DNA from: Micromonospora purpureochromogenes | Lineage (GTDB): Bacteria > Actinomycetota > Actinomycetes > Mycobacteriales > Micromonosporaceae | DNA length: 64,000 nt | Direction: 5' to 3' | NCBI RefSeq assembly: GCF_900091515.1 | Contig: NZ_LT607410.1 | Coordinates: 3,224,001-3,288,000, forward strand | Shown: one piece after another, positions 1 to 48,444 of the stretch | How the letters are laid out: each line of letters starts with the position of its first letter | Numbering within the stretch: position 1 is the first letter of the stretch | The notes under the pieces: generated by a model | Databases searched by the model: none | Seen by the model: the letters and a program-made list of their open reading frames with translations, nothing else | What the model was told of the DNA's origin: nothing | Program-made: the position numbers and the translations under genes

Positions 1-40
1 CCGGACACCGGTAGCTCGCCCACGAAGAGAGGTTAAAGCC

Positions 41-307
41 ATGCGAGACGAGGTCCGCACCTTCGTCATCGAGCAGCTCGAGGACATGAACTACGACGTC
101 GAGGGGATCGACGACGAGACCACCCTCGGCCCGTCCGGGGTCGACCTGGAGTCCCTGGCCCTGGCCGACCTGTCCGTCCGCGTCGAGGACCGGTACGGCC
201 TGACGTTCGCCGACGACGAGTCGGAGAAGCTGGCCCTGATGACGGTCGGCGAGTTCACCCGCATGGTCGCCGACCGGGTCGCCGGGTCGACCAGCGACAA
301 CCGCTGA
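41..307 (+). CDS. Acyl carrier protein
   Basis: An 88-residue acidic helical protein with the length and pattern of a discrete acyl carrier protein. The phosphopantetheine attachment region is GVDLESLALADL (about residues 33-44), with the Ser of ESLAL as the likely modified residue; the classical DSL is here ESL. It should carry acyl intermediates as thioesters for the ketosynthases downstream. The ATG is preceded by AGAGAGG about 8 bases upstream. Its stop overlaps the next ATG by one base (TGATG), so it is translationally coupled to a second ACP. It is the first complete gene in the window, and the operon may begin further upstream. Family assignment is firm; the substrate is unknown. Confidence 0.85.
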   Translation: MRDEVRTFVIEQLEDMNYDVEGIDDETTLGPSGVDLESLALADLSVRVEDRYGLTFADDESEKLALMTVGEFTRMVADRVAGSTSDNR

Positions 308-552
308 TGTCCGGTCAGCCCGACCTGGGGCGAGCTGACCTGGTGAGCATGCTCGCCGAACTGACCGCGAAACCCGTCGACCAGGTGCCGCACCGGGTCG
401 GCTCGATGGAACTCGCCTGGCTCGTGCACCTCGTCGAGCAGCGCTACGACCGGCGGCTGGACCTCACCGACGACCAGCTCGCCGGGATCCGCACCGTCGA
501 CGACGCCCTGGCGGTGTTCCGCACCTCCCTGACCAGCCCCGCAGATGGTTGA
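307..552 (+). CDS. Second acyl carrier protein-like protein
   Basis: An 81-residue protein with a carrier-protein pattern. GSMELAWLVHLVEQRY (about residues 32-47) aligns with the DSLxxxxLxxxLExxF helix of ACPs, and the Ser of GSM is the candidate phosphopantetheine site; the preceding Asp is Gly. The tail IRTVDDALAVF resembles the last ACP helix. Two consecutive ACPs beside ketosynthases and an acyl-AMP ligase is a layout known from aryl-polyene-type clusters. It overlaps the next gene by 8 bases. Because the DSL motif is degenerate it could be a non-loaded or specialised carrier. Confidence 0.7.
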   Translation: MSGQPDLGRADLVSMLAELTAKPVDQVPHRVGSMELAWLVHLVEQRYDRRLDLTDDQLAGIRTVDDALAVFRTSLTSPADG

Positions 553-1717
553 GCGGGGGCCCGTACCGATCGTCGGCAGCTACGCCGTCAGCGCCCTGGG
601 CAGGGGCGTCGACGCGCAGCTCGCCGGGGTGCTCGCCGGCACGCCGGCGTTCCGGCCGGTACGTCGCTTCGACACCACGGGCCGCCGGGTGACCGTCGCG
701 GCCACCCTGCCCGACGTCGGGACCCTGCCCGACGAGCTGGCCGACGCGATCGACGCGGCCTGCCGGGCCGCCGGCCTGGACGCGGCGATCCGGGCGGAGT
801 CGGCCCTGCTGCTGGCCACCCACGGCGGGCCGCTGTCCCAGCCCGTCGCCTTCGCCGACGATCGTCCGCTCACCGGACCCGACGCTGGGGCCGCGAGCGG
901 CGCCGAGGTCGAGGTGCCCGCGCTCGCCGGGCACCTGGCCCGCCGGTGCGGCCTCGGGGGGCCCGCCCGGGTCTACACCAGCGCCTGCGTCTCGGCGAGC
1001 ACGGCGGTCGCGGACGCGGCCACGATGATCGGCCGGGGCGGCGTCGCACGGGTGGTGGTCGCCGCCGGCTACCTGGTCGAACCGGACCAGTTCGCGCTCT
1101 TCGACGCCGGCCGGGCGCTCGCCGCCGACGGGGCGGTCCGCCCGTTCAGCGCCGGCCGGCAGGGGCTGCTGCTCGGCGACGGGGTGGCCGCGGTGGTGCT
1201 GGAGTCCGCCGGGGCGGCCCGTCGCCGGGGCGTCACGCCGGTCGCCACGGTGTGCGGGTGGGGTCGGGCCGGCGACGCGTACCACCCGTGCCAGCCGGAC
1301 CCGCAGGGGCGGGGACTGGCGCGGGCGGTGGAGGCGGCCCTGCGCCGGGCGGGGCTGGACGCGGCGGCGGTGGGCTACGTCAACGCCAACGCCACCGGCA
1401 CCGGGTTCAGCGACGCCTCCGAGGCGGCCGCGTTGCGGCTGGCGCTCGGCGACCTCGCCGGCCGGGTGCCGGTCAGCTCCACCAAGTCGGTGCACGGGCA
1501 CGCGCTGGAGGCCTCCGGCCTGCTCGAACTGGTGGTCACCGTGCAGGCGCTGCGGGACGGGAAACTGCCGGTCAACGCCGGCTGGCTGGGCCCCGACGAG
1601 GCCTGCCCGCTGGACGTGGTGATCGACGCGCCCCGGCCGGTCGGCACCCCGTACGCGCTCAGCCTCAACGCCGCCTTCGGCGGGGCCGACACCGCGCTGC
1701 TGGTGGCGGCCCCGTGA
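545..1717 (+). CDS. Beta-ketoacyl synthase with Asn replacing the first catalytic His
   Basis: A 390-residue thiolase-fold ketosynthase. The nucleophile is Cys148 in TSACVSAS and the second histidine is His319 in KSVHGHALEASG. The first histidine motif, normally NAHGTGT, reads NANATGTG, so position 282 is Asn and the following Gly is Ala. Classical FabF-type decarboxylative condensation uses Cys-His-His, so this protein may have altered chemistry (acyl transfer, or condensation without normal decarboxylation) or act as a partner of the complete ketosynthase at 3827-5080. It lies in the ACP/ACP/KS/KS-like/ligase/KS block and is coupled on both sides (8-base overlap upstream, GTGA downstream). 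The family is certain; the activity is inferred. Confidence 0.85.
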   Translation: MVERGPVPIVGSYAVSALGRGVDAQLAGVLAGTPAFRPVRRFDTTGRRVTVAATLPDVGTLPDELADAIDAACRAAGLDAAIRAESALLLATHGGPLSQPVAFADDRPLTGPDAGAASGAEVEVPALAGHLARRCGLGGPARVYTSACVSASTAVADAATMIGRGGVARVVVAAGYLVEPDQFALFDAGRALAADGAVRPFSAGRQGLLLGDGVAAVVLESAGAARRRGVTPVATVCGWGRAGDAYHPCQPDPQGRGLARAVEAALRRAGLDAAAVGYVNANATGTGFSDASEAAALRLALGDLAGRVPVSSTKSVHGHALEASGLLELVVTVQALRDGKLPVNAGWLGPDEACPLDVVIDAPRPVGTPYALSLNAAFGGADTALLVAAP

Positions 1718-2214
1718 GGGCGGTGCTGGCCGAGGCGCGCTGGCCGGAGCCCGGCGACGGACCGCCGCCGGCGCTGCCCGGGTTCGTGCACTCGCCGTTC
1801 GCGCCGCTGGTGGCGGCGGTGGCCGACCGCTGCCTGACCCGCCGGTACGGCGCGCGCCCGGCGCCGGCGGGCACCACCTGCGCGGTGGTGCTGGTCAGCG
1901 CCGCCGGTGACCGGCCGAGCGCCGCGCACGTCCGGGCCACGGTCGCCGCCGGTGGCCGGGTCGGGCCGCTGTTCTTCTTCCAGTCGGTGCCGAACAGCGT
2001 GGCCGGGCACGTCGCGGCGCGCTGGGGACTGGATGGCCCGGTGGTGTGCCTGAGCCCCACCGGTGACCCGCGCGCGGACGGCCTGGCCCAGGCGGACCTG
2101 CTGCTGCACGACGGCGACGCCGACGAGGCGTTGCTGGTCGGAATCGAAGAGGCACCGGACGGCACGCCCACCGGGGCGGTCGCGGTGCTGCTGGGGGGAG
2201 GAACGAGGCAATGA
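1714..2214 (+). CDS. Ketosynthase-like N-terminal-domain protein (chain-length-factor-like)
   Basis: A 166-residue protein starting at a GTG that overlaps the preceding stop (GTGA). The stretch FFFQSVPNSVAGHVAARWGL followed by GPVVCLSPTGD resembles the short beta-ketoacyl-synthase-like family (Ketoacyl-synt_2) often found with aryl polyene ketosynthases. It covers only the first half of a thiolase fold and has no TACAS cysteine or HGTGT motif, so it cannot be a complete enzyme. A structural or chain-length role with the neighbouring ketosynthases is likely. The end overlaps the ligase ATG (ATGA). An open frame extends further 5' inside the preceding gene, but coupling argues for the GTG start. 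Confidence 0.65.
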   Translation: MRAVLAEARWPEPGDGPPPALPGFVHSPFAPLVAAVADRCLTRRYGARPAPAGTTCAVVLVSAAGDRPSAAHVRATVAAGGRVGPLFFFQSVPNSVAGHVAARWGLDGPVVCLSPTGDPRADGLAQADLLLHDGDADEALLVGIEEAPDGTPTGAVAVLLGGGTRQ

Positions 2215-3830
2215 GGACGAAGGGACTGCGCGGGGCGCTCGCCGCCGACACCGCGCTGGGCGCCGGCAACGTGCTCGCCCGGGTGCTGGCGCACGGGGCC
2301 GACCCGACGGGACCGGGGTTGACCTTCGACACCCCGGTCGACGGGCACCCCGCCGAGCGGCCACTCACCCTGGGCCAGCTCGACGAGCGGGTCGCGGCCC
2401 GGGCGGCCTGGCTGCACCGGCGCGGCGTGCGGCCCCGCGACCCGATCGCGGTGTGGGCCACCGACGCCGCCGACATGGTGCTCGGCTTCCTGGCGCTGAC
2501 CCGGCTCGGCGCGATCCCCGCGCTGATGAACGGCAAACTCCGCCCGGAGATCGCCGCCGAGTACATCCGCCGGCTGCGCGCCGCCGGGGTGCTCGCCGAC
2601 GCCGCGCACACCGCGGCCCTCGCCGGACACGACCTGGGCGCGCCGCTGCTCGGGCAGCCCGCCGAGGCCGGCGCGGGCGACCCGGCCGACGCGCCGCCGC
2701 ACTACCGCCACCACGACGAGGACCCGATCGTCATCACCCACACCTCCGGCACCACCGGGGTGCCGAAGGCGGTGCTGCACTCGCACGCCAGCCTCTTCGC
2801 CGCCACCCGGCACCTGCTGTCCATGCCGCAGGCGCAGGGCACCAGCCGGATCCTCAACGCGCTGCCCGCCCCGCACACCGCCACCGTGCTGATGGTCAAC
2901 CAGGCGCTGGGCAACCGGGCGGAGATGCTGCTCCTGTCCGAGCAGGGCGGCGAGCGGGTGCTCGACGCGATCCAGCGCTGGCGCCCGGACGGGGTGTTCG
3001 GCTTCTCCGTCACCTGGGCGGAGCTGGCCCGCTTCGACCTGTCCGGGTACGACCTGGACTCGGTGCGGCTGTGGTTCAACACCGGGGACTGCTCGCACGA
3101 GCCGCACGTGCGGCGTCTCGTCGCGGTCGGTTCCCGCGACACCGTCACCCGCGAGGGCGTGGTGCGGGTGCCCGGCTCGGTCTTCATCGACGGGCTCGGC
3201 TCCAGCGAGATGGGCCACTCGATGTTCCACCTCACCCACACCGCCGACACCGACCGGTACGGCCGCTGCGTCGGCCGTCCCTACCGGTTCACCAGGGTGG
3301 CGGTGCTCGACCTCGACGGCAACGAACTGCCGCCCGGCGAGGTGGGCTGGCTGGGCATCGACTCGCCGTCGCTGTTCCGCGGCTACTGGAACGACTCGGT
3401 GACCACCTACCGGTCCCGACTACGCGGCTGGTACCTCACCGGCGACCTCGTCCACGCCGACGCCGAGGGCCGCTACTACCACCTGGACCGGGCCGTCGAC
3501 TCGGTGGAGCTGGCCGACGGGCGGCGCTTCTTCACCGCGCTGTCGGAGGAGCGCATCCTGGCCGCCTGCCCCGACGTCACCGACTGCACCGTGGTGATGG
3601 TCAAGCAGGACGACGGCATCGTCGTCACCGACGTGCTGCTGGAACTGGCCGCCGGCGCCGACCCGGGGACCGACCGCACCGGGGCCGTGCGCGCCGCGCT
3701 CGGGGCGGACGTCGGCGCGACCCTACGCCGGGTGGTGCCGGTCGCCTCCGCCGACATCCCGGTCACCGTCACCGGCAAGGTACGCAAGGTGGCGCTGCGC
3801 GAGCGCTACCTGACCGAGTCGGCGTCATGA
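2211..3830 (+). CDS. AMP-dependent acyl-CoA synthetase / acyl-ACP ligase
   Basis: A 539-residue member of the ANL superfamily. The ATP-binding motif is THTSGTTGVPKAVLHSH at about residues 176-192. The adenylate-binding segment follows around GLGSSEMGHS, the GWYLTGDL hinge motif near residue 408, and the C-terminal catalytic lysine is Lys523 in TVTGKVRKVAL. It should activate a carboxylic acid as the acyl-AMP and pass it to CoA or to one of the two ACPs at the start of the operon. The hydroxymandelate-synthase-type enzyme downstream makes an aromatic acid a reasonable candidate substrate, but this is inference. ATGA overlaps couple it to both neighbours. Confidence 0.85.
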   Translation: MRTKGLRGALAADTALGAGNVLARVLAHGADPTGPGLTFDTPVDGHPAERPLTLGQLDERVAARAAWLHRRGVRPRDPIAVWATDAADMVLGFLALTRLGAIPALMNGKLRPEIAAEYIRRLRAAGVLADAAHTAALAGHDLGAPLLGQPAEAGAGDPADAPPHYRHHDEDPIVITHTSGTTGVPKAVLHSHASLFAATRHLLSMPQAQGTSRILNALPAPHTATVLMVNQALGNRAEMLLLSEQGGERVLDAIQRWRPDGVFGFSVTWAELARFDLSGYDLDSVRLWFNTGDCSHEPHVRRLVAVGSRDTVTREGVVRVPGSVFIDGLGSSEMGHSMFHLTHTADTDRYGRCVGRPYRFTRVAVLDLDGNELPPGEVGWLGIDSPSLFRGYWNDSVTTYRSRLRGWYLTGDLVHADAEGRYYHLDRAVDSVELADGRRFFTALSEERILAACPDVTDCTVVMVKQDDGIVVTDVLLELAAGADPGTDRTGAVRAALGADVGATLRRVVPVASADIPVTVTGKVRKVALRERYLTESAS

Positions 3831-5080
3831 CCGCCGTCATCACCGGAATGGGGCTGTTCAGCCCGGTCGGGCGGGGCGTGGCGGCCACCTTCGACGCGCT
3901 GACCACCGGGAAGTCCGGGCTGGCCCGGCCACCCGAGGGGCACCCCGCCCGGGAGTCGCTGGAGGTCGCCGGGCTGCTGCCGCCGATCGACCCGCGCACG
4001 GTCGCCTCCGGCCCGGAGACCAAGGTGCTCGACCGGATCGTGGTGCTGGCGCTGCTCACCGCCGCCGACGCGCTCGCCGATGCCGGGATCGAGGTCGGCC
4101 GGGACGTCGATCCGGCGCGGATCGGCGTCATCGTCGGCGGGGTCGGCGGGATGTCCACGCTGGAGACGCAGGTGGTGGCGCGGGCCGCCCGGGGGCGGGC
4201 GGCGGTCAGCCCGTACCTGCTGACCGGGATCCTGCCGAACATGCCGTCGGCGCGGATCGCCATCGCGCACGGCATTCGCGGCTACAGCTCCGCGGTGGGC
4301 ACGGCGTGCGCCTCCGGCGCACAGTCGGTCGCCGACGCGGTCCGGTTGATCCGGGCCGAGGAGGCCGACGTGGTGCTCTGCGGGGCCAGCGAGGCGCCGC
4401 TCTTCCCGACCTTCGCCGACACCTTCGGCAACGCCCGGGCGCTGGCCCGCGGCTGGGACGACCCGACCCGGGCCAGCCGACCGTTCGACACCCGGCGCAA
4501 CGGCTTCGTCCTCGCCGAGGGGGCGGCGCTGCTGGTGCTGGAACGCGCCGAGCACGCCGCGGCGCGCGGCGCCACCGCCTACGCCGAGGTGGCCGGGTAC
4601 GGCGCGACCACCGACGCGTACCACCCGACCGCGCCCCGGCCCGACGGCGCGGGCGCGGCCGAGTGCATGCGGCGAGCGCTGGCCGGCGGGGGAGTGTCGG
4701 CGGGCGACGTCGGCTACGTCAACGCGCACGGCACCGGCACCAAGCTCGGCGACATCGCCGAGACCACCGCGCTGGCGACGGTCTTCGGCGTCGGCGGGGT
4801 GCCGGTCAGCTCCACCAAGGCGCTCACCGGGCACCTGCTCGGCGCGTCCGGCGTGGTGGAGGCGGCCGCCTGCGCGCTGGCCCTCGGCGCGGGGCTGCTG
4901 CCGCCGACGTACCACCTCGACGACCCGGACCCGGCCTGCCCGGCGGACCACATCCGGGTCGAGCCCCGGGCGACCGGGACGGAGTTCGCGCTGACCAACT
5001 CGTTCGGCTTCGGCGGCCAGAACGTCAGCCTGCTGCTGCGGCGTACCGCCGGGGCGCGGGCCGCCGGACCGCACAGGTGA
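3827..5080 (+). CDS. Beta-ketoacyl synthase (FabF/KAS II type) with intact active site
   Basis: A 417-residue decarboxylating ketosynthase with all three catalytic residues: Cys161 in GTACASGA, His301 in NAHGTGT and His336 in KALTGHLLGASG. The C-terminal NSFGFGGQN motif is also intact. It should condense an acyl group on its cysteine with malonyl-ACP. It is the only ketosynthase of the operon with a complete triad, so it is the likely catalytic partner of the Asn-type ketosynthase (545-1717) and the short KS-like protein (1714-2214). The ATG overlaps the ligase stop (ATGA). After this gene comes the only real gap of the operon, 59 bases. Confidence 0.9.
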   Translation: MTAVITGMGLFSPVGRGVAATFDALTTGKSGLARPPEGHPARESLEVAGLLPPIDPRTVASGPETKVLDRIVVLALLTAADALADAGIEVGRDVDPARIGVIVGGVGGMSTLETQVVARAARGRAAVSPYLLTGILPNMPSARIAIAHGIRGYSSAVGTACASGAQSVADAVRLIRAEEADVVLCGASEAPLFPTFADTFGNARALARGWDDPTRASRPFDTRRNGFVLAEGAALLVLERAEHAAARGATAYAEVAGYGATTDAYHPTAPRPDGAGAAECMRRALAGGGVSAGDVGYVNAHGTGTKLGDIAETTALATVFGVGGVPVSSTKALTGHLLGASGVVEAAACALALGAGLLPPTYHLDDPDPACPADHIRVEPRATGTEFALTNSFGFGGQNVSLLLRRTAGARAAGPHR

Positions 5081-5139
5081 CCACCCGGGCCGTACGCGCC
5101 CGGACCGCACTCACGGGGGGACATGGGGAAGGGCTGGAG

Positions 5140-6249
5140 ATGGACATCCGTGGAATAGACCACATCGAACTGTACGTGGGGGACGCGCGGCAGGCCGCCT
5201 TCTACTTCGGCACCGCGATCGGCTTCCAGCTGCGGGGCCAGGGAGGCCCGGAGACCGGGCTGGCCGGGCAGCGCTCGCTGCTGCTCAGCCAGGGCGACAT
5301 CCGGATGCTGCTCACCTCGGGGCTGACCGCCGGGCATTCCGCCTCGACGTACGTGCAGCGGCACGGCGACGGGATCGCGGTGGTGGCGCTGGAGGTCGGC
5401 GACGCCGCCGGGGCGTACGCGGAGCTGGTGGCCCGGGGTGCGACCGGGGTGAGCGCGCCGCGGACCTGGACCGGCGCGGACGCCGAGGTGGTGACCGCCG
5501 AGGTGGGCGGCTTCGGCGACGTGCTGCACCGGCTGGTGGAGCGGCGCGGCGACCGGACGGAGTTCCTGCCCGGGGCGGTGGAGACGACGCCGCCGGTCAC
5601 CGACGACGACAAGCTGCTCGCCGAGATCGACCACCTGGCGGTCTGTGTGCCGCCGGGGCAGCTCGACGAGACCGTCGCGCACTACGAGCGGGTCTTCGGC
5701 TTCGCGCAGATCTTCGAGGAGCACATCGAGGTCGCCGGCCAGGCGATGAACTCCAAGGTGGTGCAGAGCCCGTCCGGGCGGGTCACCCTGGTGCTGCTGG
5801 AACCGGACGCGGGCCACCGCCCCGGCCAGATCGACGCGTTCCTCACCGAGCACCACGGCGCCGGGGTGCAGCACCTCGGGCTGCGCACCGACGACATCGT
5901 CACCGCCGTCGGGGCGCTCGCCGAGCGGGGGGTGCGCTTCGCCGGCACCCCCGGGGCCTACTACGACGACCTGGAGCGGCGGGTCGGCCCGATCGCCGCG
6001 CCGCTGGACCGGCTGCGCGACCTGAGCATCCTGGTCGACTCCGACCACGGCGGGCAGCTGTTGCAGATCTTCACCGAGTCGATGCACGTGCGCCGCACCC
6101 TCTTCCTCGAACTGATCGAGCGGCGCGGGGCGCGCACCTTCGGCAGCGGCAACATCAAGGCGCTCTACGAGGCCAAGGAACGGGAGCTGGCCGCGGCGGG
6201 GGCAACCCCCGCCGTCGTGGCCGGCACGGCACGAGGGGTTGGGGCATGA
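5140..6249 (+). CDS. hmaS: 4-hydroxymandelate synthase (HPPD-fold dioxygenase)
   Basis: A 369-residue protein with two VOC domains. The Fe(II) ligands are His165 (EIDHLAV), His245 (VQHLGL) and Glu324 (LFLELIER), four higher than the H161/H241/E320 I recall for the Amycolatopsis hydroxymandelate synthase. The residues separating it from 4-hydroxyphenylpyruvate dioxygenase favour HMS: the strand reads VTLVLLEPD with Leu220 where HPPD has Asn in its PxNEP motif, preceded by NSKVVQSPSG, and the C-terminal motif is GSGNIKALYEA rather than GKGNFKALFEA. HMS converts 4-hydroxyphenylpyruvate to 4-hydroxymandelate, the first step to 4-hydroxyphenylglycine. Genes for the next two steps lie at 47293-49788. 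Ordinary HPPD cannot be fully excluded without assay. The ATG is preceded by purine-rich GGGAAGGGCTGGAG. Confidence 0.82.
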   Translation: MDIRGIDHIELYVGDARQAAFYFGTAIGFQLRGQGGPETGLAGQRSLLLSQGDIRMLLTSGLTAGHSASTYVQRHGDGIAVVALEVGDAAGAYAELVARGATGVSAPRTWTGADAEVVTAEVGGFGDVLHRLVERRGDRTEFLPGAVETTPPVTDDDKLLAEIDHLAVCVPPGQLDETVAHYERVFGFAQIFEEHIEVAGQAMNSKVVQSPSGRVTLVLLEPDAGHRPGQIDAFLTEHHGAGVQHLGLRTDDIVTAVGALAERGVRFAGTPGAYYDDLERRVGPIAAPLDRLRDLSILVDSDHGGQLLQIFTESMHVRRTLFLELIERRGARTFGSGNIKALYEAKERELAAAGATPAVVAGTARGVGA

Positions 6250-7175
6250 CCACCACGGAGTTCCATCCGACGCTGACCGCCGAGGAGGAGGCGCTGCTCC
6301 CGTCCGACGAGGACGTGCGCTGCTACGCCGAACACGGCTGGTACCTGTCGAAGAAGCTGCTCACCGACGAGGAGGTGGACGCGCTCACCGCCGCCGCCGA
6401 CCGCTACTACGCCGGCGAGCGGGACCGCCGCCTGCCGGTGCGCCCGCCGAAGCTCGCCTACTGGGAGCCGGCCAAGGGTCCGGTGCAGCGGCACAACGAC
6501 TACGTCCACCATGAGCACGACGGGCTGGCGGCGATCCTGCGCAAGCCGCTGATCGGGGCGGTCGCCGCCCGGCTGGCGCAGGCCGACGAGATCCGCATCT
6601 TCCAGTCCACGCTGATCTACAAGCCGCCGATCTCCGGCGAGCCGTCCAACATCGTGCCCTGGCACTTCGACAAGCACTACTGGGCGTCCTCGTCGTCGGA
6701 GAAGATGCTCACCGCCTTCATCCCGTTCCACGACTGCGGGGAGGAGATGGGCACGATCACCATGGTCGACGGCTCGCACCGGTGGCAGGAGATCGGCGCC
6801 GACGACACCGTCGTGCGGCACTTCGCCGACCGGGACCGCGACCAGCTCGAGGAGATGCTGGCCGAGAACGCCGCGTACAACGGCGCGGAGATCCGCAAGA
6901 TCCCGATGGTGATCCCCAAGGGACACCTGAGCTTCCACCACTGCCGCACCTACCACGGCAGCGGCGCCAACGTCAGCGGCCGCCCGCGCCAGGCGGTCTC
7001 GCTGCACCTGCAGGACGGCGACAACGCGTGGCGGGAGTATCCGCTCTCCGACGGCACGCTCGCCGCGTACAACCACGACGTGCTGGTCCGCCGCACCCAC
7101 GAGGGGCGGCCCGACTACGCGGACCCCGAATACTGCCCGGTCATCTGGCGCGACCGCGCCCAGCAGGGAGGCTGA
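6246..7175 (+). CDS. Phytanoyl-CoA dioxygenase-family Fe(II)/2-oxoglutarate oxygenase
   Basis: A 309-residue PhyH-family oxygenase. The facial triad is His140 and Asp142 in WHFDKHYW and His237 in [14 protein letters not shown]; Arg248 of that last motif is positioned to bind the 2-oxoglutarate carboxylate. The core also has [10 protein letters not shown], typical of the family. It probably hydroxylates, desaturates or halogen-independently oxidises a small molecule or carrier-bound intermediate. The HxD carries Asp, so it is a hydroxylase-type rather than a halogenase-type site. It is coupled to the HMS by ATGA and followed after one base by the DUF3050 gene. The substrate is unknown. Confidence 0.85.
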
Positions 7176-7176
7176 C

Positions 7177-7974
7177 ATGTCACGGTACGACTGGGGTAGG
7201 ACCCATCCGGGCATCGAGCGGCTGGAGCAGGCGGTGACCGACCGCCGCGACGTGGTGGTCAGGCACCCGCTCTACGCCAACCTGGACACCCACGAGGCGC
7301 TGGTCACCTTCATGGAGCACCACGTCTTCGCGGTCTGGGACTTCATGTCCCTGCTGAAGTCGTTGCAGCGGCAGCTCACCTGCGTCACGGTGCCGTGGAT
7401 CCCCACCGGCCCGACCGGCAGCCGCCGTCTGATCAACGACATCGTGATGGTGGAGGAGAGTGACGAGCTCGGCGAGGCCTTCATCAGCCACTTCGAGCTC
7501 TACGTGCGGGGCATGCGGGAGGCCGGCGCGGACACCACCGCCGTGGACGCGCTGGTCGGGCTGCTGCGGGCCGGTCGCCCGGTGACCGCCGCGCTGACCG
7601 AGGCGGCTGTCCCGGCGCCGTCGGCGCGGTTCGCCGCCACCACCTGGAAGATCATCGAGTCGACCCCGGTGCACTGCCAGGCCGCCGCCTTCGCCTTCGG
7701 CCGTGAGGACCTGATCCCCGACATGTTCACCCAGGTCGTCGCCGTGAACGAGCGCAGCAACCGGCTGCACACGTTCGTCGACTACCTGGAGCGGCACATC
7801 GAGGTCGACGGGGAGCAGCACACCCCGATGGCGATGCAGATGCTCGCCGACCTCTGCGGCGACGACGACGTCAAGTGGCAGGAGTGCGCCGACACGGTCA
7901 ACCTGGCGCTCACCGCCCGGGCCGCGCTGTGGGACGACATCCTCGTCGCCGTGAAGGAGGGGCGCGACCGGTGA
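7177..7974 (+). CDS. DUF3050 family protein, heme-oxygenase-like fold (possible di-iron oxidase)
   Basis: A 265-residue protein that I recognise as DUF3050 from the conserved N-terminal block [24 protein letters not shown] and [13 protein letters not shown]. The C-terminal helices carry [18 protein letters not shown] and [12 protein letters not shown]. The ordered Glu/His/Asp residues (FMEHH, EESDE, SHFELY, ERHIEVD, EQH) resemble the scattered ligand set of heme-oxygenase-like di-iron oxidases, several of which catalyse unusual N-oxygenations or C-C cleavages in natural-product pathways. A metal-dependent oxidase role here is inference from the fold and context. One base separates it from the PhyH gene, and it overlaps the E1 alpha gene by GTGA. 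Confidence 0.75.
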
Positions 7975-8942
7975 CCGACGCCGACCCGGTCCGGCTCTAC
8001 CGCACGGTACGGCTGATCCGCCGCTTCGAGGAGCGGGCCGTCGAGCTGGTCCACTCCGGGGCGATCGTCGGCGGCATCCACCCGTACCTCGGTCAGGAGG
8101 GGATCGCCGCCGGGGTGTGCGCCGCGCTGCGCGACTCCGACCTGGTCACCGGCACCCATCGCGGGCACGGGCACGTGCTGGCGAAGGGTGCCGACCCGGC
8201 CCGGATGATGGCCGAGCTGCTGGGCCGGGAGACCGGGCTGAACCGGGGCCGGGGCGGCTCGATGCACGCCGCCGACTTCGCTCGCGGGGTGCTCGGCGCC
8301 AACGCCATCGTCGGCGCCTCCGGGGCGATCCTCACCGGCGCGGTCTGGGCCCGCCGGCGGCGCGGCGACGACGTGGTGGGGGCGACCTTCTTCGGCGACG
8401 GCGCGGTCAACGAGGGGATGCTGCTGGAGGCGTTCAACCTGGCCGCGCTCTGGCGGGTGCCGGTGCTCTTCGTCTGCGAGAACAACGGCTACGCCACCAC
8501 CATGCCGGTCGCCGGCGCGGTGGCCGGCACCATCGTGGGCCGGGCCGAGGCGTTCGGCATGCCGGCCGCCGTCGTCGACGGCCAGGACCCGGAGACGGTA
8601 CGCGACGCCGCGGCCGCCGCCGTCGCGCGGATGCGCGCCGGCGGCGGCCCGGAGCTGGTCGAGGCCCGCACCTACCGCTTCGACGCCCACCACACCTTCG
8701 AACACGCGGTACGCCTCGACTACCGCCCGCCGGAGGAGGTGGCCGAGGGCCGCTCCCGGGATCCGGTGCACATCCAGGGCGCGCGGCTCGTCCCGGCGGA
8801 CCGGGCGGCGGTCGACGCGGAGGTCGAGTCGACGCTCGACGCGGCCGTCGCGTTCGCCCTGGCCAGTCCCGAGCCCGACCCGGCCGGCGCGCTGGACCAC
8901 CTGTACGCCAGCGGGCTGACCGCCCGGACGGGAGGCGGCTGA
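7971..8942 (+). CDS. Thiamine-diphosphate-dependent dehydrogenase E1 component, alpha subunit
   Basis: A 323-residue E1 alpha-like protein. The ThDP/Mg motif GDGAVNEG begins at Gly142 and ends in the CENN block about 30 residues later. [13 protein letters not shown] and the glycine-rich GRGGSMH motif are typical of pyruvate, acetoin and branched-chain dehydrogenase E1 alpha. Its partner beta subunit follows immediately (TGATG). No E2 acyltransferase or E3 is present nearby. In some natural-product pathways such E1 pairs supply a two-carbon acyl unit to a carrier protein or oxidatively decarboxylate an aryl keto acid, and the two ACPs here make that plausible. GTG start overlaps the preceding stop. 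Confidence 0.88.
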
Positions 8943-9916
8943 TGCCACGGTTGTCCTACCGCAAGGCGCTGACCAGGGCGCTCGCCGACGAACTGGCCCG
9001 CGACGAGGCGGTGTTCCTGCTCGGCGAGGACATCCGGGTGGCCGCGTCGAACATCACCGCCGGCCTGCTCAAGCGGTTCGGGCCGGAGCGGGTCCTGGAC
9101 ACGCCCCTGTCCGAGCAGGCGTTCACCAGCTTCGCCACCGGCGCGGCGCTGGCCGGGATGCGCCCGGTGGTGGAGTTCCAGATCCCGTCGCTGCTCTTCC
9201 TGGTCTTCGAGCAGATCGTCAACCACGCGCACAAGTTCCCGCTGATGACCGGCGGGCAGTGCGCCGCCCCGGTCACCTACCTGGTGCCCGGCTCCGGCTC
9301 CCGGACGGGCTGGGCCGGGCAGCACTCCGACCACCCGTACTCGCTCTTCGCCCACGTCGGGATCGTCACCGCGGTGCCGGCCACCCCGACCGACGCGTAC
9401 GGGCTGCTGGTCTCGGCGATCCGGCACGACGACCCGGTGGTGGTCTTCGCCCCGGCCGGCGCGCTGGACGTCCGCGAGGACGTCGACTTCGCCAGCCTCG
9501 CCCCGGTGCCGTTGGGCCGGGGCGTGGTGCGCCGGGCCGGCGACGACGTGACCGTGGTCGCCGTCGGGCACCTGGTGCACGACGCGCTCGCCGTCGCCGG
9601 GGAGCTGGCCGACCAGGTGTCGGTCGAGGTCTTCGACCCGCGCACGCTCTACCCGTTCGACCTCGACGGGCTGGTCGACTCGGTGACCCGGACCGGGCGG
9701 CTGGTGGTGCTCGACGACTCCAACCGGTCCTGCGGCATCGCCGGGGAGATCATCGCCAGTGTCGTGGAACGGGTGCCGCTGGCCGCCCCGCCCCGGCGGG
9801 TCACCCGCCCGGACGGCGCGGTGCTGCCCTTCGCGCCCGCGCTGGACCGGGCCGTACAGCCCGGCCGGGCGGCCCTCACCGCCGCCATCCACCACGTGAC
9901 CAAGGACGGATCATGA
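8942..9916 (+). CDS. Thiamine-diphosphate-dependent dehydrogenase E1 component, beta subunit
   Basis: A 324-residue transketolase-type E1 beta protein. It shows the N-terminal [28 protein letters not shown], the DTPLSEQAF motif with the ThDP-activating glutamate, and the C-terminal EVFDPRTLYPFD transketolase domain. It should form an alpha2beta2 heterotetramer with the product of 7971-8942. The absence of a lipoyl-domain E2 means the acceptor of the acyl group is unknown; one of the operon ACPs is a candidate. It overlaps the ATP-grasp gene by ATGA. Confidence 0.88.
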   Translation: MPRLSYRKALTRALADELARDEAVFLLGEDIRVAASNITAGLLKRFGPERVLDTPLSEQAFTSFATGAALAGMRPVVEFQIPSLLFLVFEQIVNHAHKFPLMTGGQCAAPVTYLVPGSGSRTGWAGQHSDHPYSLFAHVGIVTAVPATPTDAYGLLVSAIRHDDPVVVFAPAGALDVREDVDFASLAPVPLGRGVVRRAGDDVTVVAVGHLVHDALAVAGELADQVSVEVFDPRTLYPFDLDGLVDSVTRTGRLVVLDDSNRSCGIAGEIIASVVERVPLAAPPRRVTRPDGAVLPFAPALDRAVQPGRAALTAAIHHVTKDGS

Positions 9917-11271
9917 TCGATGTGAACTACCCGTGGCCGGCGGCCGGCCGGGCGTGGACCGACCTGCCGGAGGCTACCCGCCGGGCGATGGTCGCCGCCG
10001 GGGCGCAGGAGTGGGAGCGGATCTTCCACGGCCGGGCGACGTACAACAAGCAGTGGCGGCTGGCCCGGCCGACGGTGCTGACGGCCGACTCCTTCCGCGA
10101 GCTGAACGAGGTCTGCGACCGGATCGCCCAGCTCATCCTGGACGCCTGCCGGCGACGCGCCCGTACGGCGGGGGAGCTGCGGCGGCTGCTCGGCGTACCG
10201 GCGGGGGAGACCCGGCTGCTCGACGAGGACGAGCCGCTGACCGAGGCGCTGCTCGCCGCGTACCGGCCGGACGTGCTGCTCTCCGGCGGGGAACCGCGGA
10301 TCGTCGAGTACAACATCGACAGCAGCCTCGGCGGCGGCTTCGACGCCGACACGGTGATCCAGCGGTTCGCCCAGCTCTACCGGGAGCGTGGCCTGCTCGA
10401 CGGCGTGCCGGCGCGGCCGGCACCGTCCCTGCTGGACCAGCGGTTCGTGGCGATCCGCGACGAACTGGGCCTGGCCGAGGGGGCCCGGGTGGCGCTGCTG
10501 ATGGACTTCGACGCCGAGTACCCGGGGCTGGACGACCCGGAGACCTTCATCCGGATCCTCTCGCCCCTGGTGGACCAGGGCCGGCGCTTCGGCATCGACC
10601 TGGTCATCGCCCCGGTCGCCACCGCCACCCTGGACGCCGACCGGCGGCTGGTGGTGGACGGTGCGCCGGTGGACGCGCTGTTCCGGCTCTTCGTGCCCAA
10701 CCGGGTCACGCCGAGCGCGGGCCTGGAGGCGGTGGCGGGGGCGCTCGCCGCCGGCACCCTGCCGATGTTCGTCAGCGCCGCCGCCTGGCTGCTCGGCAAC
10801 AAGGTCAACTTTGCCTGGCTCTACGAGGACCTGGACCAGCTCCCCGCCGACGACCAGGCCCTGATCCGCCGGTACGTGCCGCACACGGTGGTGCTGACCG
10901 AGGCCGAGCTGGACCGGGCGCTGGCCGAGCAGGCCGAGCTGGTGGCCAAGCCGGCCGACGGCTCCGCCGGCCACGACGTGCTGATCGGCCCGGAGCTGAG
11001 CGCGGCGGCCTGGGCCGACGGGGTCCGCGCCGCCGTGGCACGGGGCGGCAACATCCTGCAGCGGTACATGCCGGCCGACCGGGTGGCGATGGACTTCGTG
11101 CAGATCGAGACCGGCGAGGTGGTCACCGCGAAGGTGCCGTACAGCATCGCCCCCTACCTGTTCGGCCGCACCGGCTCCGGCGCGCTGGCCCGGGTCGGCT
11201 ACCCCGGCTGCGAGGGCGTGCTCAACCTCGCCCGGGGCGTGCTGATGACCGGCATCCTGCTCACCGACTGA
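9913..11271 (+). CDS. ATP-grasp ligase (circularly permuted / glutathionylspermidine-synthase-like)
   Basis: A 452-residue protein with ATP-grasp features: VEYNIDSSLGGGFDAD near residue 132, AELVAKPADGSAGHDVLIG near residue 345 and NILQRYMPADRV followed by a beta-strand core. The layout (YNKQWRLARP at the N-terminus, ATP-binding elements in the C-terminal half) resembles circularly permuted ATP-grasp proteins and glutathionylspermidine-synthase-like enzymes, which join a carboxylate to an amine through an acyl phosphate. As the last gene of the operon it may make an amide bond in the final product. The ATG overlaps the E1 beta stop, and a strong hairpin follows the stop codon. Fold call fairly secure; substrates unknown. 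Confidence 0.75.
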   Translation: MIDVNYPWPAAGRAWTDLPEATRRAMVAAGAQEWERIFHGRATYNKQWRLARPTVLTADSFRELNEVCDRIAQLILDACRRRARTAGELRRLLGVPAGETRLLDEDEPLTEALLAAYRPDVLLSGGEPRIVEYNIDSSLGGGFDADTVIQRFAQLYRERGLLDGVPARPAPSLLDQRFVAIRDELGLAEGARVALLMDFDAEYPGLDDPETFIRILSPLVDQGRRFGIDLVIAPVATATLDADRRLVVDGAPVDALFRLFVPNRVTPSAGLEAVAGALAAGTLPMFVSAAAWLLGNKVNFAWLYEDLDQLPADDQALIRRYVPHTVVLTEAELDRALAEQAELVAKPADGSAGHDVLIGPELSAAAWADGVRAAVARGGNILQRYMPADRVAMDFVQIETGEVVTAKVPYSIAPYLFGRTGSGALARVGYPGCEGVLNLARGVLMTGILLTD

Positions 11272-26604: not shown

Positions 26605-26643
26605 GGTGTCCTCCTTGCTGTTGCAGCAGCAGGTGGGCACCCA

Positions 26644-40316: not shown

Positions 40317-40434
40317 GGTCGAGACCCCTTCGGCGGCACACGTGGGACGAGGGCTCACGCAGTATCGACAGGTCTCAGTGCCGGGCGACATTGGCCATCG
40401 CTGTATTTAAACTGTCGGATAGTAGATGTAACGC

Positions 40435-41709
40435 CTACTCAGCGTGAGGCGCTGCGGCTTCCCTTGTCGGCACGCCCGCCCCGGATTCGGCTCCGCGCGG
40501 CACCGCCGGCCGAGGCTCCCGGGCCCCCCGGCGGAGCCCGCCGACCAGCAGCGGAGCCACCGTCAGCACCAGGCACGCCGCCGACATCACCAACAGCGCC
40601 GGGATCAGCCCGAGCGCCGCCGCCGACCAGCCGCCCAGCAGCGCGCCGACGGGCAGCCCCAGGAAGGCCAGCGAGCCGGAGATGCCGATCACCCGGGTCT
40701 GCAACGCCTCCGGCACCCGCTCGTAGAGCGCCGCGCCCAGCAGCGGGTTCACCGTCGCGATCGCCATCCCGGACAGGAACGTCACGGTGAGCACCACCAC
40801 CAGCTCGTCGCTGAGCGCGAGCGCCAGCAGCCGGGGCGTACCGCTGGCCGCCGCGCCCACCGCGAAGGTCAGCTGGCGGGGTAGCCGCGGCCCGGCGGCG
40901 GTGAAGAGCAGGTTGCCCAGCAGCGCGCCGCCGGAAAAGACCCCCAGCACCAGGCCGAAGCCGGCCGGGTCGCCGAACACCTCGGCCACCCAGAGCGGGA
41001 TGTAGACCGCCACGCTGGCGTTGGCGAACATGTTCAGCGCGGAGACGACCACCAGCATGGTCAGCAGCACCGGGTCGGTGCGCAGGTAGCCGAAGCCGCC
41101 GCGCAGCGCCCGCAGGTAGCTCTCCCGGGGCGCCGGTTCCGCCGGCGCCGGTGGCCGCACGAGGACACCGATCAGCAGCGCGCAGACCGCGAAGGTCGCC
41201 GCGTCGATCCAGATCGCCCGGGTCACCCCGACCCAGTCGATGAGCAGCCCGCCGAGCACCGCGCCGAACAGCGTCACCCCGCGCACCAGCCCGTCGTAGG
41301 CGGAGGTGAGCCGGATGAGTGGCACCCCGGCGCGCTGCGCGGCCGGGCGGAACATCACGTGCTTGACCCGGTCGCCGATGCCGCGCAGCCCGCCGGCGAC
41401 GGCGACCAGCGCGACCAGCGCGCCGAACCCCAGCCAGGGCGCCAGCGCCACCACCGCCATCGCCACCGCGCTCGCGGCGTCCGCGACGATCGAGGTACGG
41501 CGCACCCCGAACCGGTCGGCCCAGGGGGTGGCCAGCGCGCTGGAGAGCATGTACGGCAAGGTCTCCGCCGCCGCGACGAGGCCCATCTTCGTGGGGCTGC
41601 CGGTGGTCTCCAGCACCAGCCAGGGGATCGCCACCACCGAGATCCGGCTGCCCAGGTTGGAGATCAGGTCGGCGGCGACCAGGACGGTCAGCTCCCGCCG
41701 CGGCTTCAC
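40435..41709 (-). CDS. MFS transporter (drug-efflux-like)
   Basis: A 424-residue major facilitator protein with about twelve hydrophobic segments, starting at LTVLVAADLISNLGSRISVVAIPWLVL. The motif between helices 2 and 3 reads ATPWADRFGVRR, a variant of the MFS motif A (GxLADRxGRR). The C-terminal tail is Arg/Pro-rich. It is coupled by ATGA to the ligase gene upstream (stop 41706), so a role as an exporter for the product of the neighbouring pathway is plausible. No substrate can be read from sequence. Confidence 0.85.
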   Translation of the reverse strand: MKPRRELTVLVAADLISNLGSRISVVAIPWLVLETTGSPTKMGLVAAAETLPYMLSSALATPWADRFGVRRTSIVADAASAVAMAVVALAPWLGFGALVALVAVAGGLRGIGDRVKHVMFRPAAQRAGVPLIRLTSAYDGLVRGVTLFGAVLGGLLIDWVGVTRAIWIDAATFAVCALLIGVLVRPPAPAEPAPRESYLRALRGGFGYLRTDPVLLTMLVVVSALNMFANASVAVYIPLWVAEVFGDPAGFGLVLGVFSGGALLGNLLFTAAGPRLPRQLTFAVGAAASGTPRLLALALSDELVVVLTVTFLSGMAIATVNPLLGAALYERVPEALQTRVIGISGSLAFLGLPVGALLGGWSAAALGLIPALLVMSAACLVLTVAPLLVGGLRRGAREPRPAVPRGAESGAGVPTREAAAPHAE

Positions 41710-43265
41710 GCCGGGCTGCCGATCCCCGCTCCGGTGGCCTCCGGCGCCGGTGGGTGCGCGGCGGCGTGCCGGGCCCGCAGGGCCAGCTTGTCCACCTTGG
41801 CCGAGCGGTTGAGCGGCAGCGCGTCGAGGAACTCCACCCCGCCGGGTGCCCAGGTCTCACTCAGCTCGGCGGTCACCAGCGCGATCAGCTCGTCGCCGGT
41901 CGCCGTGGCCCGCGGCGCGCGCACCACGTACGCGTAGGGCAGCTCGCCGGCGACCGGGTCGGGTACGCCGATCACCGCGGCGGCGCGTACCTCGGGGTGG
42001 CCGGCGAGGACGTCCTCGATCGGGCGGGAGTAGATCGGCCAGCTGCGCTGCCGGGTGAGGATCCGGTCCTGCAGCCGGTCGACCAGGTAGAGGTAGCCCT
42101 CGTCGTCGAGGTGGCCGATGTCGCGGGTCCGGACCCAGCCGTCGACCAGCGTCTCGGCGGTCAGCTCCGGCTGGCCGTGGTACCCGGCGAAGCTCAGGTT
42201 GGTGCGCACCCACACCTCGCCGTCGGCGCCCGGGGGCAGCACCCGCCCGTCGGCGTCGCGGATCTCGATCGCCACGTCCCCGTACGGCTTCCCGCAGGAG
42301 CACAGCCGCTGCGGGTGGGCCGGATCCTCGGCCAGGCCGGGCAGCGCGGTGATCACGACGGCCTCGCTGAGGCCGTACACGATGCGCAGGACCGGGCCGA
42401 AGCGCGCGATCGCCTGCCGCAGCCGGGCCGGCGCGGCGGGCCCGGCGCCCACGTTGAACATGAACATGGCGGAGAAGTCCGCGCCGTCCAGGGCCGGGTG
42501 GTCGAGCACCTGGTAGAGCATCGGCGGGGTGACGAAGGTGGAGTTGATCGCCTCCTGTTCCACGGTGCCGATGAACGCCACCGGGTCCCACTGCTGGCGC
42601 AGGAAGAGCACGCCGCCGGTGAAGAGGTTGAACAGCGTGGTGATCTGCCCGCTGGCCAGCCACATCGGCGAGTGCGACAGGTGCCGCAGCAGCGGGAACC
42701 CGGCGGCCCGGAAGTCGGCGGCCAGGGCGAGGATCTGCCGGTAGAAGCTCTCCCGGTGGTGCACCAGCTTGGGCGTGCCGGTGGTGCCGCTGGTCTGCAG
42801 GAACGACTCCGGCGCGGGCGGGGCGGCGGGCAGGTCGACCGGGCCGCCGGGGGTGAGCTCGGCGCCGAGGCGCAGCACCGGCACCCCGGGCAGCGAGGCG
42901 GCGATCTGGACGCCCAGGCCGTCGGTGGCCCGGGCGTCGTGCACGAAGACGTCGGGACGGGCCAGCCGGACGAACTCGTCGATCTCCCGGCGCGAGGTGA
43001 CCGGGGCGATCCACATCGTCCGGCAGCCCAACAGGTGCAGCGCGAGCTGGAGCAGCGGCCCCTCGACCGCGTTGCCGAGCATCACCAGCACCGCCGCGCC
43101 GGGCCGTACGCCGTGCGCGGCGAGCGCTCCGGCCAGCCCGCGCACCTCGTCGGTGACCTCGGTGTAGCTGAGCCGCCGGCCGTCGCCGACCAGCGCCTCC
43201 CGGTCGCCGAAACCGGCGAACAACTCCAACGCCTGGTGCACGTAGCTGGTCGGTCGATCGGTCAT
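41706..43265 (-). CDS. AMP-dependent acyl/aryl-CoA ligase
   Basis: A 519-residue ANL-superfamily protein. The ATP motif is FLQTSGTTGTPKLVHH (about residue 160), the adenylate motif is YGLSEAVVI, the hinge motif is WVRTRDIGHLDDEGY and the catalytic lysine lies in LPLNRSAKVDKLAL near residue 500. The overall form matches benzoate-like and fatty acyl CoA ligases. It is the first gene of a two-gene unit with the MFS exporter and diverges from the SGNH hydrolase and P450/Hmo/HpgT block. A substrate related to hydroxyphenylglycine is possible but unproven. ATG at 43265 (MTDRPTSYVHQ). Confidence 0.85.
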   Translation of the reverse strand: MTDRPTSYVHQALELFAGFGDREALVGDGRRLSYTEVTDEVRGLAGALAAHGVRPGAAVLVMLGNAVEGPLLQLALHLLGCRTMWIAPVTSRREIDEFVRLARPDVFVHDARATDGLGVQIAASLPGVPVLRLGAELTPGGPVDLPAAPPAPESFLQTSGTTGTPKLVHHRESFYRQILALAADFRAAGFPLLRHLSHSPMWLASGQITTLFNLFTGGVLFLRQQWDPVAFIGTVEQEAINSTFVTPPMLYQVLDHPALDGADFSAMFMFNVGAGPAAPARLRQAIARFGPVLRIVYGLSEAVVITALPGLAEDPAHPQRLCSCGKPYGDVAIEIRDADGRVLPPGADGEVWVRTNLSFAGYHGQPELTAETLVDGWVRTRDIGHLDDEGYLYLVDRLQDRILTRQRSWPIYSRPIEDVLAGHPEVRAAAVIGVPDPVAGELPYAYVVRAPRATATGDELIALVTAELSETWAPGGVEFLDALPLNRSAKVDKLALRARHAAAHPPAPEATGAGIGSPA

Positions 43266-43500
43266 CGCACAGCCCCCAGTCGATGCGTGGCGGCCGGCGC
43301 GACCTGCCCGGTGGGACGCGTCGCGGCGACCGGCAGACAATGGCATCCGGGCAGGTCAGAGCCCGGGACGCGACGGGGTGCGCGGCATGGCGACCGCACC
43401 GCCGCCGGATAGGAGCCTAGGGGCGGGACGTCCTGACCGGACAGAGCCGAACGGTGCCCGCCGGCTCTCCCCGGACATTTGATCTGGTCGATCGGGTTGA

Positions 43501-43530
43501 TTGACGCCCGTCAGCGCCAGCGGCTAGGTT
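43501..43530 (+). promoter_or_regulatory. Sigma-70-like promoter for the SGNH hydrolase
   Basis: TTGACG at 43501-43506, an 18-base spacer, TAGGTT at 43525-43530, 67 bases upstream of the ATG at 43598. It lies in the 332-base space shared with the divergent ligase gene; the rest of that interval (43266-43500) shows no gene, and the ligase promoter is not obvious. Confidence 0.5.
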
Positions 43531-43597
43531 TCTGGACCATCGTCCGGGCGGTGCCGATCATGGACGCCGACTCCGGGCTGCCAACGATGGAGGTTCC

Positions 43598-44908: not shown

Positions 44909-44912
44909 CACC

Positions 44913-44945
44913 GGTGGGGCGGCGGGGGTGACCCGCCGCCCCACC
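44913..44945 (+). terminator. Terminator/attenuator before the P450 operon
   Basis: Perfect 14-base arms GGTGGGGCGGCGGG (44913-44926) and complement (44932-44945) around a 5-base loop, 4 bases after the SGNH stop and only 25 bases before the P450 GTG. Either the P450 operon starts at a promoter within this hairpin region or it depends on read-through. Confidence 0.8.
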
Positions 44946-44970
44946 GTCCATCCTGGGAGGAAGCACCACC

Positions 44971-46188: not shown

Positions 46189-46196
46189 GAGACGGC

Positions 46197-48441: not shown

Positions 48442-48444
48442 GCC

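Follow-up and report, generated by a model that had tools for sequence, protein, structure and literature searches.

A stretch of 64,000 nucleotides from Micromonospora purpureochromogenes (assembly GCF_900091515.1, contig NZ_LT607410.1, positions 3,224,001 to 3,288,000; hereafter the window), whose genome is a single contig of 6.67 Mb, carries two operons that, as we hold with moderate confidence, form one cluster combining a 4-hydroxyphenylglycine route with a small type II polyketide synthase (PKS) and amide formation by an ATP-grasp ligase. The first (operon 1, 41-11271) contains an enzyme of the 4-hydroxymandelate synthase (HMS) type, and the second (operon 2, 40435-49788) contains an FMN oxidase resembling hydroxymandelate oxidase (HMO) and an aminotransferase. 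HMS, hydroxymandelate oxidase and the aminotransferase HpgT constitute the 4-hydroxyphenylglycine pathway set, represented by HmaS, Hmo and HpgT in the glycopeptide antibiotics, and because the window contains candidates for all three enzymes, this route best explains the HMS. The gene content, the linkage, the HMS and HMO assignments, and the folds of the ATP-grasp ligase and of a half-ketosynthase are supported by the sequences. HMS most likely starts a branch toward 4-hydroxyphenylglycine or 4-hydroxyphenylglyoxylate, the predicted formation of the latter being well supported. Coordinates below are window positions, negative numbers count bases upstream of window base 1, and the labels L### (loci) and G### (genomes) are our own.

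The best solved match of the HMS is 2r5v (E 2.9e-95), listed as PCZA361.1, which we take to be the HMS of A. orientalis. Its Fe ligands, H165, H245 and E324, are present in 68/68 rows, as are I339 and Y343, positions that are F and F in the other 4-hydroxyphenylpyruvate dioxygenase (HPPD) of the genome and that presumably correspond to I335 and Y339 of the A. orientalis HMS, where Ile and Tyr replace two active-site Phe. S205/V207 were rejected as diagnostic residues, since the housekeeping HPPD has the same. The initial annotation had already recognized an HMS-type enzyme, which the diagnostic residues and the best solved relative bear out; what it missed was the 4-hydroxyphenylglycine branch, two other enzymes of which lie in the same window. 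The FMN oxidase has as its five best solved matches proteins named 4-hydroxymandelate oxidase (376-380 bits), all variants of one or two enzymes, followed by L-lactate oxidase (358 and 334 bits) and hydroxyacid or glycolate oxidases (284-288 bits). As for the aminotransferase, several relatives of 68-90% identity, among the matches listed, are automatically named (S)-3,5-dihydroxyphenylglycine transaminase.

Gene content, coupling and linkage of the two operons

Operon 1 and the two genes that precede it are as follows (ACP, acyl carrier protein; KS, ketosynthase).

-2039..-642, + strand: AMP-ligase (upstream ligase), in the preceding DNA
-606..23, - strand: Sfp/HetI-type phosphopantetheinyl transferase (PPTase); the window part, 1..23, is the start of the gene
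41..307, + strand: ACP1; Ser38 in 67/67; PP-binding 19.5 bits, cut-off 20.8
307..552, + strand: ACP2; Ser33 in 68/68, W38 in 68/68, H41 in 67/68
545..1717, + strand: KS1, FabF/AmcF-like; Cys148-Asn282-His319
1714..2214, + strand: half-KS partner (ApeC/AmcG-like chain-length or cyclisation factor)
2211..3830, + strand: AMP-forming ligase (middle ligase), CreM/AvaA6 neighbourhood; best solved relative 8ztz
3827..5080, + strand: KS2, FabF type, with complete Cys-His-His
5140..6249, + strand: HMS-type dioxygenase with I339/Y343
6246..7175, + strand: PhyH Fe(II)/2-oxoglutarate oxygenase; H140, D142 and H237 in 70/70
7177..7974, + strand: DUF3050 protein, haem-oxygenase-like (MgoB/PvfA/HamA family), lost in several genomes
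7971..8942, + strand: thiamin-diphosphate (ThDP) enzyme E1 alpha, PF00676; 31-34% identity to the two genome paralogues compared
8942..9916, + strand: ThDP enzyme E1 beta
9913..11271, + strand: ATP-grasp ligase, glutathione-synthetase/GspS/YgiC fold; two alleles in the genus

Twelve coupled genes had been described at 41-11271, joined, with a single exception, by overlaps of 1-8 bases or a gap of one base, and re-derivation of the open reading frames agrees: from ACP1 to the ATP-grasp gene there are overlaps of 1, 8, 4, 4 and 4 bases, a gap of 59 between KS2 and HMS, an overlap of 4, a gap of 1, and overlaps of 4, 1 and 4. The gene order is constant across Micromonospora, and offsets counted over 71 loci, 70 of them distinct, are -1 for ACP1/ACP2 (67/68), -8 for ACP2/KS1 (68/68), -4 for half-KS/ligase (63/68) and ligase/KS2 (60/69), and -4 for HMS/PhyH (55/70) and DUF3050/E1-alpha (63/67). 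Less constant are KS1/half-KS (-4 in 19/68, with starts picked automatically), E1-alpha/E1-beta (-1 in 34/71) and E1-beta/ATP-grasp (-4 in 31/71). As most offsets recur in so many loci, translational coupling is a kept feature beyond chance, and operon 1 is a real, conserved, tightly coupled gene set.

While the twelve genes stand, the extent first given was too short, for the locus starts before base 1 and the second set at 40435-49788 belongs to it. Extension upstream, proposed as a check, revealed the AMP-ligase and the Sfp-type PPTase. Among 40 loci (L054-L093) drawn from 96 genomes of the genus plus one of another genus with a match, and picked for spread rather than at random, the upstream ligase is present in 40/40 (79-91% identity) and the PPTase in 31/40; at an identity of at least 70% the ligase gives 40 rows, the window's included, and it is also found in L104, L105, L106 and L128. 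Gene order is the same in all 40, the gaps being the loss of DUF3050 in L079 and its reduction to a remnant in L054, the lack of HMS and most of PhyH in L091, and an N-masked half-KS in L072. The called PPTase start lies 15-18 bases from ACP1 in 38/39 loci, which leaves scant space for two promoters, and the true start may lie further inside the gene, with GTG candidates at 8 and -10. Consensus scans returned no promoter and one terminator-like site against 1.1 expected in shuffles, and are thus uninformative. Nei-Gojobori dN/dS medians of 0.21-0.56 by gene (from 250 locus pairs picked at random, with smaller numbers for some genes) fit purifying selection, although they are not relied on, since high G+C compresses dS and the upstream-ligase row is polluted by other ligases.

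Operon 2 comprises seven genes.

40435..41709, - strand: MFS transporter, overlapping the third ligase; assigned by reading; in Kribbella L040, too, the ligase is followed by an MFS gene
41706..43346, - strand: third AMP-ligase
43598..44908, + strand: GDSL/SGNH-type esterase; no NCBIfam match, assigned by reading
44971..46188, + strand: cytochrome P450
46197..47300, + strand: LipP1-family esterase, above cut-off
47179..48441, + strand: FMN 2-hydroxyacid oxidase, matched from residue 64; true start probably further in
48445..49788, + strand: HpgT-like aminotransferase

That operon 2 belongs to the same cluster as operon 1 is supported by both position and co-occurrence. A sister-cluster FMN oxidase used as query on 14 chosen genomes matched in all 14; with G424 and G926 set aside, since their own clusters supplied or contain the oxidase, 10 of the 12 cluster-bearing genomes have a homologue on the strand of the ATP-grasp gene and some 6-15 kb downstream of it, the exceptions being G500, where it is on another contig, and the window genome, at 36 kb downstream. 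In Kribbella (L040), operon 1 is followed, after one MFS-like gene, by genes for all six operon 2 proteins tested, the two sets running on converging strands. Moreover, 24 named Micromonospora loci have 9.9 kb or more of downstream sequence, and in 22 of these at least the operon 2 ligase is present there, many running off the fetched end (misses: L012 and L035). Among 160 genomes of the genus, the ATP-grasp gene occurs in 96 and is absent from 64, the P450 occurs in 94, both in 92, ATP-grasp alone in 4, P450 alone in 2 and neither in 62 (Fisher p 8e-37, counts and p being uncorrected for shared descent); the aminotransferase, at an identity of at least 73%, occurs in 93, in 92 of them with the ATP-grasp gene, the singles being 4 (ATP-grasp) and 1. 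G404 retains both operons at a distance of 925 kb. Two genomes have the P450 but no ATP-grasp gene: G464 keeps the ligase, esterase and aminotransferase only in pieces, and G535 the aminotransferase only in pieces. In the window strain the operons are 35 kb apart, versus a median of 9.2 kb in 32 hand-picked genomes, with about 26 kb of extra DNA between them.

Carrier proteins, ketosynthases, oxygenases and the ATP-grasp ligase

ACP2 has no Pfam match and only weak NCBIfam ones; its W38 and H41 fall at the W/H positions named for the starter ACP CmaA3 in the accessible part of PMC10777205. KS1 scores 222 bits with the NCBIfam fabF model and 158 bits with AmcF, both under cut-off, and Asn replaces its first active-site His in 66/67 rows, the lone His row (L028) being a mis-assigned KS2 match. 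The Asn was rejected as a hallmark of every HMS cluster, since KS1 of G424 carries His. The small protein next to it, first annotated as KS-like, is indeed KS-related and can now be specified as a half-KS partner of the ApeC/AmcG type. Equivalog scores for the Amc models all fall short: AmcF 158 for KS1 and 205 for KS2 (cut-off 325), AmcG 37 (cut-off 80) and AmcB 18 bits (cut-off 80). The middle ligase is likely an acyl-ACP ligase. For the depositions 9vwb (DUF3050), 8ztz and 9cjn, no matching papers were found. Middle-ligase paralogues of 54-63% identity, present in 20/160 Micromonospora genomes, mark further clusters (L121, L122/L128, L123).

In the DUF3050 protein, candidate residues for the 3 His/3 carboxylate metal site of a haem-oxygenase-like diiron oxidase (HDO), placed by sequence and including E97, H105, H207, D211 and H215, are invariant in 65/65. 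No copy of the gene is present in L012, L013 or L079, and L016, L054 and G412 keep a remnant, the remainder of the cluster being intact; these losses from otherwise standing clusters suggest that it acts at a late or optional step. The E1 pair had been described as lacking an E2, and none occurs among the operon genes; the idea that the pair is a Micromonospora-type add-on was rejected, as G424 and G926 have it too. Two other settings of DUF3050 were seen. In L124, L125 and L127 a second DUF3050 (65-69%) stands beside a PurB-like lyase, an amidase, a 4Fe-4S ferredoxin and FAD monooxygenases (families tested in L124), a set that presumably resembles diazofluorene-type clusters, and in L126 (9419-10180) a DUF3050 of 43% has a DpgA-like type III PKS and an AMP-ligase as neighbours.

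Fold comparison agrees with the ATP-grasp ligase first proposed, at about 11-18% identity to the matched structures. Named relatives of the gene are mostly Micromonospora (29/30 loci), with a few in Solwaraspora, Salinispora and Kribbella. Among 39 ingroup loci it forms two clades (22 and 17), each monophyletic in its own tree, and neither is monophyletic in the tree of five other operon genes, where L083, L084 and L088 switch sides. In addition, its divergence relative to the other genes is 2.69x between classes versus 1.28x and 1.59x within classes. The tree conflict together with the excess between-class divergence points to an exchange of the ATP-grasp gene and a change of amine partner; hence the gene may have been exchanged between lineages and the amine partner of the amide may vary, a reading that rests on single trees with some weak nodes.

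From the gene content we infer which substrates follow 4-hydroxyphenylglyoxylate, in what order the steps run, what product results and how the two ketosynthases, the E1 pair and DUF3050 take part. In one route, HMS would convert 4-hydroxyphenylpyruvate to 4-hydroxymandelate, the operon 2 FMN oxidase would oxidize this to 4-hydroxyphenylglyoxylate, and the aminotransferase could convert the keto acid to 4-hydroxyphenylglycine. In the other, the ligases would load an aryl acid on ACP2, plus a second acyl group, and KS1/half-KS and KS2 would add one or two C2 units, with fatty-acid synthesis supplying any reduction. An alpha-keto acid of this system, most obviously 4-hydroxyphenylglyoxylate, is probably the substrate from which the E1 pair forms a C-C or acyl bond; PhyH, the P450 and, where present, DUF3050 would carry out oxidations; the ATP-grasp ligase would form an amide, possibly with or from hydroxyphenylglycine, which would thus be used with no non-ribosomal peptide synthetase (NRPS) gene in either operon; and the MFS protein would serve export. 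A more specific version is offered tentatively: the keto acid from HMS/HMO would be aminated but also serve the stand-alone E1 pair as source of an aroyl group for a type II PKS intermediate, while the GspS-like ligase, swapped between lineages, would set the amide partner, all without an NRPS. The product idea of the initial annotation, an aryl starter extended once, oxidized and amidated, is possible.

Sister clusters in other genomes

A half-KS search of 394 genomes of the class gave 10 with matches, three of them in the genus; the other seven loci were fetched. The cluster is also found in one Solwaraspora-type genome and in Kribbella. In another family of the order, L104/L130 carries the upstream ligase, both ACPs, KS1, half-KS, ligase, KS2, HMS, PhyH, FMN oxidase, aminotransferase and LipP1 esterase, with an E1 pair about 8.6 kb further along, which led to rejection of L104 as a reduced cluster without E1; the fetched stretch gave no DUF3050 or ATP-grasp match, and condensation-domain and aminoacyl-tRNA-synthetase-like proteins occur instead. 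FMN oxidase homologues are present in the L040, L104 and L122 clusters. In G424 (L122/L128), a Micromonospora that lacks the window-type ATP-grasp gene, the set is rearranged and consists of HMS, FMN oxidase, LipP1 esterase, PhyH, KS1, KS2, half-KS, ligases, E1 pair and a glycosyltransferase. Common to the three HMS-bearing types are the ACPs, KS1/half-KS, KS2, two ligases, HMS, FMN oxidase, esterase, PhyH and E1, while DUF3050 and the ATP-grasp gene are particular to the window type.

L105 (1626-15713), which is Streptomyces-like, has an aryl ligase fused to DAHP synthase, ACPs, KS1, half-KS, pabAB, an AurF-like N-oxygenase, a ketoreductase and UbiD, only the ligase-ACP-KS1-half-KS part of operon 1 being present; L106 has the same part with a gene that reads like the L105 AurF-like one. 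These aryl-acid neighbours point to aryl acids as the starters of that part. For the L105 cluster, a 4-amino- or 4-nitrostyrene-type product is conceivable. More distant KS1 relatives stand in other gene settings in L107-L110. In L123 (G545), ACPs, ligase and KS2 are accompanied by a MenD-family ThDP enzyme and an asparagine-synthetase-type (AsnB) amidotransferase, a possible parallel, by analogy, to E1 and ATP-grasp.

Known systems, alternative readings and neighbouring DNA

The cluster shares with the glycopeptide 4-hydroxyphenylglycine pathway an HMS with the I/Y signature, an FMN oxidase closest to HMO and an aminotransferase with transaminase-named relatives; unlike there, the genes are split over two operons among ACP, KS, ligase and ATP-grasp genes, with no NRPS gene among them. 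With the AmcF-AmcG type II PKS of cispentacin and coronafacic acid it has in common a KS, a half-KS partner of about 160 residues and a small ACP, but the models score under cut-off, no AmcE, AmcC or AmcD counterpart is seen, KS1 has Asn for the first His, and there is a second KS. The ava/cma highly reducing type II PKSs (avenalumic and p-coumaric acid) are similar in their two ACPs, KS, chain-control partner, AvaA6-neighbourhood ligase and the W38/H41 of ACP2, and differ in that no 3-amino-4-hydroxybenzoic acid (3,4-AHBA) or nitrite genes are seen among the operon genes and the AvaA6 score is under cut-off. The likeness to aryl polyene clusters (ApeO-ApeC, ApeR) first noted holds for the half-KS, at the level of fold with the ApeO-ApeC entry, and for general KS/ACP homology; as the initial annotation stated, neither ketoreductase nor dehydratase occurs among the genes of operons 1 and 2, nor does a glycosyltransferase, which sets the cluster apart from aryl polyene ones. 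This absence is no argument for a non-reduced chain, because the accessible parts of two reports describe the cma cluster as yielding p-coumaric acid without the ketoreductase gene of ava (PMC10777205) and the cispentacin pathway as borrowing the host FabI (PMC10698177). The ATP-grasp ligase shares its fold with glutathionylspermidine synthetase, YgiC and eukaryotic-type glutathione synthetase, and differs in its low identity and its two divergent allelic classes.

Several observations weigh against the two-operon hydroxyphenylglycine reading. The aminotransferase family is huge (3926 proteins at E<=1e-40) and no HpgT match for this member was found in NCBIfam or among solved structures, so that 4-hydroxyphenylglycine itself is somewhat less sure than the keto acid. 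As a match of the L104 oxidase, HMO is outscored by lactate and glycolate oxidases, several genomes carry more than one such FMN oxidase, the best aminotransferase relative in G424 (50%) is about 200 kb from its HMS/FMN oxidase cluster, the Kribbella P450 is only 45% identical, and KS1 lacks the usual first active-site His. G464 and G535 keep a near-whole P450 and FMN oxidase though operon 1 is missing, and, besides the shared descent within the co-occurrence counts, operon 1 adjoins the same SGNH gene in 48/53 loci, so that part of the linkage is inherited synteny.

An alternative that is unlikely, though far from negligible, takes hydroxymandelate or 4-hydroxyphenylglyoxylate as the aryl starter itself, loaded on ACP2 by a ligase or transferred there as an aroyl group by the E1 pair. 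KS1/half-KS would extend it once and cyclise it, much as 2-oxoglutarate is treated by AmcF-AmcG, giving for instance a five-membered lactone or carbocycle, and the aminotransferase would serve another step. KS1 and half-KS do match the AmcF/AmcG models, the accessible part of PMC10698177 has AmcF-AmcG extending once and cyclising, G424 keeps HMS, FMN oxidase and E1 pair without a nearby aminotransferase, and KS1/half-KS relatives adjoin aryl-acid genes; on the other hand, the AmcF, AmcG and AmcB scores are all under cut-off, no AmcE-like decarboxylase is present among the operon genes, and the aminotransferase accompanies the ATP-grasp gene in 92/160 genomes and recurs in the Kribbella and L104 clusters. 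Very improbable is a middle ligase acting as an ATP-dependent diazotase with DUF3050 as partner in N-N chemistry, the product carrying or passing through a diazo or related group. AvaA6 is the best NCBIfam match of this ligase, but its 501 bits are under the cut-off of 975, no nitrosuccinate pathway or CreD/CreE-type nitrite genes are seen in a search confined to the operon genes, and DUF3050 is lost from several otherwise intact clusters. In L124 the neighbours of DUF3050 do include a PurB-like lyase, an amidase and a ferredoxin, and DUF3050/haem-oxygenase-like relatives occur in the mgo and ham operons; however, in the accessible parts of PMC3298696 and PMC11659414 it is the AurF-like gene that encodes the N-oxygenase there, MgoB/HamA (PvfA) being the haem-oxygenase-like member, for which reason DUF3050 was rejected as a PvfB/MgoC N-oxygenase, and an mgoB mutant still produced mangotoxin while HamA was non-essential for hydroxylamine intermediates. 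Least credible of all is a conserved chromosomal block of primary or housekeeping metabolism that is not one pathway: the common site beside the SGNH gene and the presence of the ATP-grasp gene in 96 genomes speak for it, and against it stand the 64 genomes without that gene, the grouping of the same gene kinds in Kribbella and in L104 of another family, the cluster's own carrier proteins and PPTase, and the divergent alleles of its last gene.

Micromonospora has been mined for decades, and both cluster markers occur in 92/160 of its genomes, more than half, yet no assigned product was found. In keeping with the earlier statement that no described pathway matches, none was found in the searchable open-licence PMC literature (subscription papers, patents, MIBiG and antiSMASH being outside its scope), and no such cluster is described in the accessible parts of PMC10698177, PMC13108848, PMC10777205, PMC11705231, PMC12154687, PMC3298696 and PMC11659414. 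What is new is the combination of known enzyme kinds, part of which is explained by a known amino-acid route. The cluster is compact, at about 21 genes, which suits heterologous expression; it could reveal the workings of a half-KS, of DUF3050 and of an E1 pair that stands alone, and its two ATP-grasp alleles offer a ready comparison for amine specificity. Were the NRPS-free aroyl-donor version true, it would represent a new small-molecule class made by most Micromonospora species.

Between the operons of the window, read by eye, lie an IS110-family-like transposase (25375-26640, - strand) and a polymorphic-toxin-like RHS/YD-repeat protein of 3144 residues (30957-40391, - strand) with a Hint-like part near its C-terminus. 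On the upstream side, L010 2380-7649 (-15.6 to -10.4 kb of the window) holds a whiE-like type II PKS set, partly read by eye, of biotin carboxylase, ACP-cyclase fusion, cupin, KS-alpha and KS-beta. In L136, the SGNH gene has matches to the whiE-like KS next to it and nothing matching operon 1 in between, and the locus looks like an empty site.

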